Below are positions 2,085 through 62,946 of a stretch of 64,000 nt of DNA, piece after piece (position 1 is the first letter of the stretch; each line of letters begins with the position of its first letter). The stretch spans positions 22,501 through 86,500 of the forward strand of contig JAODUO010000965.1 of the NCBI GenBank assembly GCA_025642075.2, read 5' to 3'. Origin of the DNA: Ridgeia piscesae (taxonomy: Eukaryota; Annelida; Polychaeta; Sabellida; Siboglinidae). Both the position numbers and the translations under genes were made by a program. A model generated the notes under the pieces. It was not told where the DNA came from and ran no database searches. It saw only the letters and a list, made by a program, of their open reading frames with translations.

Positions 2085-2885
2085 GTGTCACCTCGCGGGG
2101 TGCACTAGACGACGTGTAGTGCATTGCCCTTGTCAACAACCTGTCATCTCGGAGAGTGCACTAGTTGACGTATAGTGCATTGCCCTTGTCGACAACCTGT
2201 CATCTCCGGGAGTTCACTAGTTGATGTGTAGTGCATTACCCTTGTCGACAACCTGTCATCTCGGAGAGTGCACTAGTTGACGTGTAGTGCATTGCCCTTG
2301 TCAACAACCTTTCATCTCGGGGAGTGCACTAGTTGACATGTAGTGCATTGCCATTGTCAACAACCTGTCGTTTCGGGGAGTGCATTAGTTGACGTGTAGT
2401 GAATTGCCATTGTCAACAACCTGTCGTCTCGGGGAGTGCATTAGTTGACGTGTTGTGCATTGCCCTTGTGAACAACCTGTCACCTCGGGGATGGACTAGT
2501 TGACGTGTAGTGCATTGCCCTTGTCGACAACCTGTCATCTCGGCGAGTGCAATAGTTGACGTGTAGCGTCACTGTCAATAATCCCTAATTTCGTGGAATG
2601 CAATAAATGGCGTGTAGTGTCATCGTCTTTGTAAACATTCTGTCACTTCGTGGATTGCACTAGTTGACTTCTAGTGTTATTGTTAATATTCTCTCAGCTC
2701 GAGGTTAGAGAATATTAACATATAGTGTTATTCTCCTTTTCAACATACTGTCATCTCGGGAGTGCGCTAGACGACGCATAGTGTCATTGTCCTTGACATA
2801 ATTCTGTCTTCTCGGGGAGTGCACTAGACGAAGTGTTGAGTCATTGTCCTTGACATAATTCTGTCACCACACCACAGGGAGAGCG
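2085..2885. repeat. ~58-60 bp minisatellite, about 13 copies, seeded from the TTC38 stop-codon end
   Basis: A degenerate tandem repeat whose units carry the landmarks gtgcactagttgacgtg, tagtgcattgcccttgtc and acctgtcatctcgggg. It ends exactly where the last TTC38 coding exon begins on the plus strand. Units next to the gene (agtgtcattgtccttgac, ataattctgtc) align with the exon itself (agtgccatggctctggcc, atcattctctctgtc), and the tta/cta of the stop codon sits at the matching position. I infer the array arose by repeated duplication of the last ~60 bp of the coding sequence. A 13-bp inverted repeat (2682-2694 / 2707-2719) lies inside. Confidence 0.8.
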
Positions 2886-5800
2886 TTAGTCGACATTCAG
2901 TGCCATGGCTCTGGCCATCATTCTCTCTGTCATTGGTGAGTTGTATTCCTTCAGCGCCTTTCGCTCCGTCAACAAAGCCCTGTGGACAAAGACACAGGAC
3001 AGACTCAAACACACACACAAATGAACACGGGAAACTAATTCCCAGGAAAACAAGAGAAACGTGGAACTATAGTATAAATGGATAAGTAAAAATATATATA
3101 AATGCATAAATATTCATAATAAACAAGACAATGGCAGGTGACAATATAACATTTAAATATCGTTGATGTATAGGTGCACCTGACTGTGTGACTGGTGTAC
3201 ATAACGTTGTGTGTCATCTGACCATGTGAGTGATATATTAATTATTGTTTCATCAGAGTAAGTGACTACATGTTGGTGTTTGTCATGAACTTTGTCAGTA
3301 GGTTTGAGAGAGTAGCATAAGGAATGTGGCTCTAGGCTGATGTAATATAGGGGCCGTGGGCTCGAGTCTCTTTAATGATGTGTCGTTTCTCTCTTACTTT
3401 CTATCTTTGACGCCTTCTGTGAATGATTTTGTTGAACTGCCATCTATATTGATCAGTGAACTTGGTTGTCATGCCTGTATTAATTTTAAGTGAGTTGGGT
3501 TTAAATTATATATACACACACAACACACACACACACATATGTATATATATATATATATATATATATATATATATATATATATATATATATATATATGTGT
3601 GTGTTGTGTGTTGTGTGTGTGTGTGTTGTATTAGTTTGTATGTCTTAAAAGGATAAGCATAATGTTAAGTAACTAATAATATTACTTCTTTTTTTCTTGC
3701 CTTTATTTAGTGTTTACATCATCTCATGTGATCATAGGATTATACACTAAACGATTCTTCCCAACAACGATGTATATTTATGTGGGGACAACGGATGGGA
3801 GAAAACAGTACAAAGAATGACCAGATTTGTTAACACAGTGCCTTCAGGTGTGCTAAAATGCAATTGATGCCACCGAAGAGTTGACTGAGAAATGCTATTA
3901 TATATAGCAGTGAAACCTTATTAAATGGTCAAACGCAGATGCCAAAATTAAAACAGAAAACGAAAAGTTTTCCGTTGCCTATATGTCAAAATATGTCGTT
4001 GCCTATATTAAGAAAAGCCCATAATGTGGCGTGAATTCATTTATATGCAGACTACAAATCATCTGCTACATAAATATGTTCAAGGCTGCAATTAGCTACA
4101 TTTTCCTCCATTGACTTTTATACAAAAGGTAGGTTACATTTGACGGTAATCGCCTACAAAACCCGCCAGTCATAAAGTAGGCTATATGGTGGTTTTTATC
4201 ATGATGAACGACTCGAATCGGCGCTGAAAGGCACATAATGGTCGTAAAATTAACCTCGAGTAGATCGATACCTTGTGCGTTAAGTGGTCGAAATGAATCC
4301 GTGCCACATGACTAGTTTTTATGGCATTGCGTGATAACGCGAAGCTCACTAATCATTGTAGGAATGAAACACTTTTCGTAATGTAACTCACAGTGTGATG
4401 GTTCAGATAAATCATTGTCGTTATCAGTTATAACATACAGTCTTCGGAACGGAGTATGTATACGTTTATAGTGTGTGGATTAGCACCTAATATTGTTATT
4501 CATGTTTTTGATCAACGGCAAGAGCAGTGCAATTGGATATTCCAAAAAGTTTTGCCGGTTTTGTTGATTTATTGTCCTGTCGCCGAGCGCCGAGCGCCGA
4601 GCGCCGAGCGCCGAGCGCCGAGCGCCGAGCGCCGAGCGCCGAGCGCCGAGCGCCGAGCGCCGAGCGCCGAGCGCCGAGCGCCGAGCGCCGAGCGCCGAGC
4701 GCCGAGCGCCGAGCGCCGAGCGCCCAGCGCCCAGCGCCCAGCGCCTAGCGGTATTGAAGTACCGGCAAGTTTTTATCTAAAACGTGTTCGCAAGGTGGCG
4801 CCACTGTATAATCGCATTAAATCATCAAAAAAAATTAATATTTTGTTGGCGTAACTCCATGGTCATCATACTATGGTCACATATGTATTAATGCTATGTT
4901 CTTTTGTTTTGGTGGTGGTTGTTCAAAAATGTCATACTCCGTTTAAAAGTCCAGTTGACCTCTGAACATTTTGCTTTCTGTGTATAAACAGGGTCGCTTA
5001 ATTCAAAATAAAGCGGGCAATGCCTAACTTAGGCATTGCCCGCCTTATTTTGAATTAAGCGACGCCGATAAAAATACATTTATTCAGGTTGTGCTCTATA
5101 ATATCGTGGATGACACTGTAGGCCTACACTTGTGGCAAGGTAAAAATAAAGTAGTTTATGATATTACTTTATATGTAGGCAGAGCAAATATTTAGGTTTT
5201 GTTTAAATATTATGATATGTAATATCGTCACAGAGGACACGAAATAAGGTCACATTATGCATTATTACGTTTTAGCAACAATTACCTTGCCAGACGATGG
5301 TGTTTCGGCAGTGGCGACCTCAACGTGGCGTTGATCAAGAACAAATTGAAGATGTCACGCTGAAAGTCCACAATGTCTGGATGAAATAAATTACAGAGGA
5401 ACTCTCGCATGTTCAAAATCATCGTATCTCATTGTGTACTCTGCATTGAAATTACTAAACTATTCGTTTCCGTCTTCGCTAAAATTTGTACAATTTCACA
5501 AGCATACCATGTTGTTTACTTGTATTATATTAATATAGTAACTATTGCTGTGGATGTTGCTAAATATTGCTTACATTGCAACTAATGGAATAATATATGT
5601 CACTTGCAACAAGTATAATATTGATCAATGTCTATATTCCATCGGTGATGTCTCCGCCTCATATTAGGCATCTCATGGGGAGGTCACATCACTAATGAAG
5701 AAATGGTGAGGAATACAGGCAGTGATAGTCTACATTACATCGTCAAGTATCTGGACATAGTCTACGTTTATCGAGAACACGGATAACCCATGTTGCTATG

Positions 5801-62345: not shown

Positions 62346-62524
62346 ACCTTAAGCAACATTTAACTTGCAAATGTTGAAGGAAATTTTAGACACATTGTAT
62401 AGAAAACGTATTGTGAAACACGACTAATTTGTGCAGCATGTTCTTCTATGTACATTAATGTATCGGACACTACAAGACGATGATGTAGACAGTCAGGGCG
62501 GCTGTCCTCGTGCAAATTCACGTC

Positions 62525-62946
62525 GGGTCGCCAGTGCCACGAGCTACTGGTGACACTTGTACGTCGTGTCACCAGTGCTACATGCTTCTGGTGACACTTG
62601 TACGTCGTGTCACCAGTGCTACGTGCTTCTGGTGACACTTGTACGTAGTGTCACCAGTGCTGCGTGCTGTTGGTGTCACTTGAACGTCGTGTCACCAGTG
62701 CTACGTGCTGTTGGTGTCACTTGAAGGTCGTGTCACCAGTGCTACATGCTTCTGGTGACACTTGTACGTCGTGTCACCAGTGCTACGTGCTTCTGGTGAC
62801 ACTTGTACGTAGTGTCACCAGTGCTACGTGCTTCTGGTGACACTTGTACGTCGTGTCACCAGTGCTACGTGCTTCTGGTGACACTTGTACGTAGTGTCAC
62901 CAGTGCTACGTGCTTCTGGTGACACTTGTACGTCGTGTCACCAGTG
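62525..62946. repeat. 41-bp hairpin minisatellite, ~10 copies, abutting a stop codon
   Basis: Each unit contains GTGTCACCAG, a 12-nt loop and CTGGTGACAC, then a 9-nt spacer (ttgtacgtc). Stems can form within or between units. On the minus strand the array begins at the end of the terminal exon: exon GTCGCCAGCAGCACGTAG (stop) versus unit GTCACCAGAAGCACGTAG. The unit appears derived from the end of the coding sequence. Confidence 0.93.

Follow-up and report, generated by a model that had tools for sequence, protein, structure and literature searches.

The sequence analysed here is a 64-kb window of contig C965 from the siboglinid annelid Ridgeia piscesae; by the window we mean that whole stretch of DNA. 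It carries a TTC38 gene on the minus strand, a Pinocchio-like gene, a gene for a coiled-coil protein and, at 62.9 kb, an open reading frame (ORF) that may be the last exon of a putative uncharacterised gene. The arrays observed at exon edges of these genes belong to the minisatellites known as mirages, in which the repeat unit extends across an exon edge. They derive from pre-existing exon ends, are found in genes with no relation to one another and exceed in number what geometry predicts. The genome searched beyond the window comprises 628,048,202 bases in 4,875 contigs.

Arrays and exon edges in the window

Tandem Repeats Finder (TRF) clusters with a period of at least 10 and a length of at least 100 were counted, giving 13 minisatellite clusters in the window (Table 1). 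An earlier note on this DNA had named six main places at which an array arises from an exon end, and five of these hold: the TTC38 exon 2 donor, the Pinocchio-like last-exon acceptor, the donors of coiled-coil exons 9 and 10 (exons 8 and 9 in that note's numbering) and the stop codon of the 62.9 kb ORF, whose coding end matches the 41 bp unit (shuffle P 0.0005). The sixth, the TTC38 stop codon, stands in part. Here the coding end and early 3' untranslated region align to the array units (50/74 and 48/72 identical columns; shuffle P 0.001 and 0.0005, one shuffle reaching 46 as against 40), while the tandem call for the 57 bp array stops 19 bp from the stop codon. By these alignments the TTC38 coding end appears to be a diverged copy of the downstream array unit; the adjoining 56 bp array resembles the 57 bp one in sequence.

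The arrays had also been said to begin exactly at the boundary, which does not describe the four main splice-edge cases: these extend 7–47 bases into the exon. Among the looser cases, the arrays before coiled-coil exons 8 and 9 do lie 0 and 6 bp from an acceptor, the former touching it, but hold no exon bases; that assigned to the exon 6 donor in the note's list starts 45 bp from the edge. The central claim, that exon ends, whether at a donor, an acceptor or a stop codon, are the source of arrays with differing units, is borne out. The Pinocchio-like acceptor, placed by homologues, reads TTGTAG/TCCCACAG (the slash marks the boundary) at 39,590, and the annotated protein P0241 uses the exon-proximal copy of this splice site. 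Copies of coiled-coil exon 9 within its array hold in-frame stops. Five of the 13 clusters are over 50 bp away from all known exon edges. Four of them (10,958; 33,171; 34,167; 61,563) were not seen to hold an edge, and the fifth is the 56 bp array at 2086-2566.

Homologues back the exons of the TTC38, Pinocchio-like and coiled-coil genes, on whose correctness the earlier note had made its claim depend, and the coding edges of Pinocchio and TTC38 are conserved in homologues. For TTC38, the human protein served as tblastn query and gave 11 exon pieces; refinement brought the model to 13 coding exons, and no sequence for the first coding exon was found. The best match to the model is P0121 (Ridgeia piscesae NP493_966g00006; 98% identity over 84% of the query), and the C-terminus ends ALNVD, as compared with TLNVD in homologue P0122. 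This public model lacks exons 2, 3 and the last exon (16818-17819 and 2886-2979), although homologues need them; arrays sit at two of these three, exon 2 and the final one. The Pinocchio-like gene matches P0241 (Ridgeia piscesae NP493_966g00003), its last exon starting SHSQHLAHWDG in P0242 and SHSQHFAHWDG in P0243 of Lamellibrachia satsuma. For the coiled-coil gene, tblastn with eight homologues supports a model of 11 coding exons; the protein is 45–46% identical to the best spiralian matches and 41% to that of Branchiostoma belcheri, and in a tree it groups with annelids, a grouping without starred support. An amphioxus origin of the DNA was rejected on these identities and on the Ridgeia matches. 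The 62.9 kb ORF gave no match when searched against Pfam and PDB.

When each array was slid within its own gap, with overlap of edges forbidden, 8 of the 13 clusters lay within 20 bp of an exon edge, as compared with 1.34 expected (P 1.7e-8); two TTC38 exon ends had been corrected by eye before this test. Because this null forbids overlap, the test was repeated on fully resolved introns with straddling allowed, where five of nine arrays were at or over an edge and 1.06 were expected (P 7e-4).

Table 1. Exons that bear or adjoin arrays, and the arrays themselves (window coordinates).
Feature	Position	Strand	Basis or remark
TTC38 last coding exon	2886..2979	−	Stop TAA 2886-2888; not in public model P0121
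TTC38 exon 2	17742..17819	−	tblastn and refined model
Pinocchio-like last exon	39590..39733	+	SHSQHLAHWDG..., near-identical in Lamellibrachia satsuma
Coiled-coil exon 9	51017..51175	+	tblastn of homologues
Coiled-coil exon 10	52871..53038	+	tblastn of homologues
Last exon, putative uncharacterised gene (62.9 kb ORF)	62947..63919	−	Open reading frame; gene model unconfirmed
56 bp array (2086-2566) and 57 bp array (2722-2866)	2086..2866	−	Behind TTC38 stop codon
48 bp array over TTC38 exon 2 donor	17543..17752	−	Exon ends 17742; 11 exon bases in array
35 bp array, ~81 copies, over Pinocchio-like last-exon acceptor	36783..39606	+	17 exon bases in array
17 and 20 bp arrays	49236..49977	+	Fill most of intron before coiled-coil exon 8 (start 49978)
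16/33/98 bp array	50611..51010	+	Ends 6 bp before coiled-coil exon 9 acceptor; no exon bases
51 bp array over coiled-coil exon 9 donor (51,175)	51129..51982	+	47 exon bases and GTAC per unit
64 bp array, 57 copies, over coiled-coil exon 10 donor (53,038)	53032..56679	+	7 exon bases per unit
41 bp array with stop codon TAG (62947-62949) of the ORF	62520..62964	−	TRF and ORF

Nine of the 13 clusters are in introns. The stretch separating TTC38 exon 2 from the first coding exon of Pinocchio (17820-31055) is free of minisatellite clusters of at least 100 bp, and given this gap transcription could be relevant to where clusters occur. Within TTC38, exon 10 seemingly ends at a GC donor (GAAG/gcacgt, 7435, minus strand), and a long (GACA)n tract (13217-14019) stops about 34 bp before the exon 4 acceptor (exon start 13182, minus strand); simple repeats may also lie near exon edges. 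Open frames at 14982-15690 (minus strand) inside a TTC38 intron resemble, by eye, the end of a LINE reverse transcriptase.

Arrays in genes chosen blind and elsewhere in the genome

Because the window was selected for the pattern itself, genes chosen blind, with no reference to their repeats, provide a fairer test. A chaperonin set was assembled by a PF00118 search of the Ridgeia genome (50 matches; 30 loci taken with 1.5 kb on each side), the loci being merged into 19 regions of 78,225 bases with 42 resolved introns. A myosin set consisted of five stretches, 28,400 bases and three genes, picked by number of exon matches. The enrichment near exon edges seen in the window persists in these genes: 10 of 20 arrays straddle an exon edge, where uniform placement predicts 2.5 (P 6e-5) and placement weighted by G+C content 4.8 (P 0.01).

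The chaperonin straddlers are at acceptors of CCT5 (27 bp), CCT7 (44 and 48 bp) and CCT3 (54 bp) and at donors of CCT3 (45 bp) and CCT8 (31 bp); in the myosin set, a myosin-V-like gene has three at donors (20, 31 and 28 bp) and a myosin-VI-like gene one at an acceptor (20 bp). Arrays that do not straddle were found in CCT3 (29 bp), CCT5 (35 and 37 bp), CCT8 (32 and 23 bp), HSP60-like sequence (64, 26 and 27 bp), the myosin-V-like gene (16 bp) and a muscle-type myosin gene (46 bp); of these, the HSP60-like 27 bp and myosin-V-like 16 bp arrays end 3 and 6 bp from an acceptor. CCT5 (contig C525) also carries a two-copy 470 bp tandem duplication that covers an acceptor and part of the exon, perhaps the early or first stage of a mirage. 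Its inclusion gives 11/21 (P 1e-5 uniform, 0.005 G+C-weighted). The muscle-type myosin gene (contig C1015:203801-216200) has adjacent near-duplicate exons that are apparently mutually exclusive.

Outside the window, contig C965 carries a GABA-B-receptor-like gene on the minus strand; coding-score exon finding was used only to spot this gene. At one of its acceptors, 45 copies of a 64 bp unit (TTTCAG/GGTCCTGTTATG...) hold the acceptor and 46 exon bases coding GPVMFDEKGDRRGLT, and an array of 16 bp units spans the donor of a transmembrane exon. Three further arrays lie in resolved introns, 25, 36 and 54 bp from an edge. In a sliding test of this gene alone, with straddling allowed, two of five arrays were at or over an edge, 0.58 being expected, a borderline result (P 0.06); three introns were excluded as unresolved and most edges were read by eye. 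Elsewhere on the contig, 53 bp units form a 9.3 kb array (122134-131432) in a stretch without an identified gene.

Pooling all genes, 16 of 32 arrays straddle an edge, as compared with 3.5 expected under uniform and 6.1 under G+C-weighted placement; with four added non-straddlers the count is 16/36 (P 3e-7 and 5e-4, respectively). The straddlers occur in TTC38, the Pinocchio-like, coiled-coil and GABA-B-like genes, CCT3, CCT5, CCT7, CCT8 and two myosin genes. They comprise nine donors and seven acceptors, with no clear preference for either side, hold 7–47 exon bases, and have units of 16–64 bp that differ in length and sequence when compared by eye. In the 77 fully resolved introns of the contig and the chaperonins (no myosins), 11 of 21 arrays are at or over an edge (3.6 expected, P 1.3e-5) and 15, these 11 included, are within 25 bp of one (6.0 expected, P 3.5e-7). 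Of the 154 fully resolved splice edges in these genes, 10 are straddled.

Straddling was scored by reading sequence in context, not by script, and tallies were entered by hand. Straddler counts exclude both arrays at stop codons, a 61 bp array that follows the 62.9 kb gene, two low-complexity arrays of the myosin regions (CA-rich and TC-rich) and the C965 arrays outside known genes. The CCT5 470 bp duplication was left out of the straddler tallies except for the 11/21 count. Neighbouring arrays in one intron were merged (CCT5, the myosin-VI-like gene and coiled-coil intron 7), one automatic CCT5 junction was corrected by eye, and the HSP60-like and myosin edges were read by eye.

TTC38 exon 2 together with its array was used as a DNA query and also matched two other contigs, C906 and C1363, both carrying TTC38-like genes. 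Each paralogue encodes exon 2 (77 and 73% protein identity) with the donor CACAG/gtgagt present once, and inspection of both loci revealed no tandem array at this donor; in one of them, a 24 bp array is located some 200 bp upstream of exon 2. Since two paralogues share the exon 2 donor without the array, the TTC38 array arose after this exon end and its donor.

Breakpoints, composition and the origin of mirages

The exonic share of the unit in the 16 splice-edge straddlers (arrays merely touching an edge, with an exon share of 0, are not among them) is evenly spread from 0.11 to 0.92, with a mean of 0.48 (Kolmogorov–Smirnov P 0.77). This even spread indicates that breakpoints ignore the splice site. 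AG/GT at the junction is absent from six of seven acceptor and two of nine donor straddlers. In nine arrays in which copies were compared, mean identity to the consensus is 0.93–0.98 and most copies retain intact splice sites. The intact fraction of the splice dinucleotides is above the array mean in six of the nine and below it in three, and in none do they stand alone at the top, so that there is no clear signal of selection on splice sites within copies of these nine arrays. Alignment scores using exon sequence only ranked the adjacent edge first in just three of the nine arrays having one; as a test of seeding this approach was dropped, being too short to decide where units hold few exon bases.

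Straddling windows are richer in G+C than intron interiors (0.474 vs 0.373), and weighting by unit G+C lifts the expected straddling fraction from 0.109 to 0.192, the observed fraction in the 16/32 count being 0.50. We infer that composition explains part of the excess.

The best explanation overall, and one that we consider reasonably probable, is random short tandem duplication combined with tolerance at exon edges and near-neutral expansion. Short tandem duplications with units of 16–64 bp would arise in genic DNA with random breakpoints, probably more easily in the G+C-richer sequence of exon ends than in A+T-rich introns. Duplications that are wholly coding would be purged by selection, while those that straddle an edge would survive because the outermost copy keeps the exon, with its splice site or stop codon, intact. 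The survivors could then expand through slippage or unequal exchange, their copies drifting close to neutrally.

Several points weigh against this explanation. The purging of wholly coding duplications is an assumption. The blind loci were sampled as 1.5 kb flanks of exon matches, so that central parts of long introns are under-represented; of the 20 blind arrays, 10 occupy an intron resolved at one edge only, whereas the null fraction was derived from 44 resolved introns. In a stricter sliding test of the CCT set alone the excess is borderline (4/7 arrays, 1.95 expected, P 0.05). Splice sites of copies may be under weak constraint. The G+C-weighted null leaves an approximately twofold excess (P 0.0005 overall, 0.01 in blind genes), which gives room for a further cause, or hot spot, at exon ends. 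One such cause would be a process tied to the boundary, such as an R-loop, a nucleosome edge, replication–transcription conflict or AG/GT microhomology, that starts duplication there. The stop-codon arrays would fit this idea, as they suggest that the end of coding sequence matters and not splicing alone. Nevertheless, we regard initiation at the boundary as unlikely, given the even spread of breakpoints relative to the edge and the scarcity of AG/GT at acceptors; furthermore, arrays separated from an edge by 1–25 bp show no clear excess (4/21, about 2.4 expected). On the first two of these grounds, the earlier note's proposal that the boundary itself, through AGGT microhomology or a break at the splice site, acts as the trigger is not supported.

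Retention by selection, with extra splice-site copies or repeated motifs aiding splicing or expression, would account for the intact sites in most copies, and passages of a Caenorhabditis elegans study report one minisatellite to be enriched in introns that undergo multiple alternative splicing (PMC4039745). It is improbable in Ridgeia, where splice dinucleotides do not stand out from other positions in nine arrays, copies of coiled-coil exon 9 carry in-frame stops, and two TTC38 paralogues manage without the array. Another reading is that, instead of decorating old introns, the arrays mark the birth of introns through duplication of a proto-splice site (the Rogers model), as proposed for amphioxus globins in the cited part of PMC3087553; in its favour is the 54 bp array of CCT3, which spans all but 9 bp of a 148 bp intron. 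We think this very improbable, because none of 21 arrays overlaps both edges of its own intron and because, in the one case available, the TTC38 exon 2 donor is present in two paralogues without an array. An artefact of assembly or of wrong exon models is the least credible of all: several edges were read by eye, but copies differ among themselves, exons were fixed via homologues or human proteins, and the pattern recurs on other contigs.

In conclusion, the arrays are a recurrent, real feature of this genome, of the same kind as amphioxus mirages, and a boundary-specific trigger is unsupported. The data suggest that fresh tandem duplications form, or persist, at the ends of coding sequence. 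A bolder proposal, which we put forward tentatively and think rather doubtful, is that coding-exon ends, splice sites and stops alike, are hot spots beyond what composition and tolerance provide, with about one splice edge in fifteen carrying a mirage, and that the amphioxus mirages have the same cause but evolved independently.

Ridgeia arrays and known mirages

Mirages, reported before from a few lancelet genes, become countable and comparable through conserved annelid genes. They provide material from which exon ends could shift and introns could form, and they raise the question of how the spliceosome selects one site among tens of near-identical copies. Such arrays may also mislead gene prediction, as the exons absent from the public TTC38 model illustrate. 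Comparison with a sister tubeworm could separate mutation bias from selective tolerance, and the TTC38-like genes on C906 and C1363 offer a ready comparison within one genome.

A literature search of titles and abstract openings returned no annelid case, and no other invertebrate case besides lancelets. The nearest annelid parallel is earthworm metallothionein, whose first intron has long minisatellites with monomers averaging 178 and 181 bp and in which exon 4 duplications are absent from the transcript (PMC12783039); its monomers are longer than those of Ridgeia, and units spanning a splice site are not described in the passages cited. Minisatellites over exon–intron boundaries are also reported, in the cited part of PMC2812944, as internal tandem repeats in human segmental duplications, with units averaging 30 bp. 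There they vary between recent paralogues and alter transcripts, whereas the Ridgeia arrays are in conserved genes and known from DNA alone. The Rogers model, as cited in PMC3087553, likewise involves tandem duplication over a splice site, but intron gain is not part of the Ridgeia evidence.

The closest likeness is to the amphioxus mirages, described in the cited passages for Adh3, the globins BflGb6 and BflGb9 and lancelet PGBD5 (PMC3087553, PMC3902484). As in Ridgeia, their units hold the exon–intron boundary together with exon bases, and 5' and 3' splice sites of several unrelated genes are involved; unit sizes are given as 10–72 bp in Adh3 and 150–160 bp in the globins. The earlier note had taken both 3' splice sites and stop codons to extend the amphioxus pattern. 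Only the stop codons do, since both 5' and 3' boundaries are affected in amphioxus globins according to the relevant part of PMC3087553. Mirages at both splice sites were thus already known in amphioxus; what is new in Ridgeia is the annelid host, with arrays of up to 57 and 81 copies, their presence at stop-codon ends, a frequency measured against a null in blind genes, and breakpoints that are evenly spread relative to the exon edge and apparently random.

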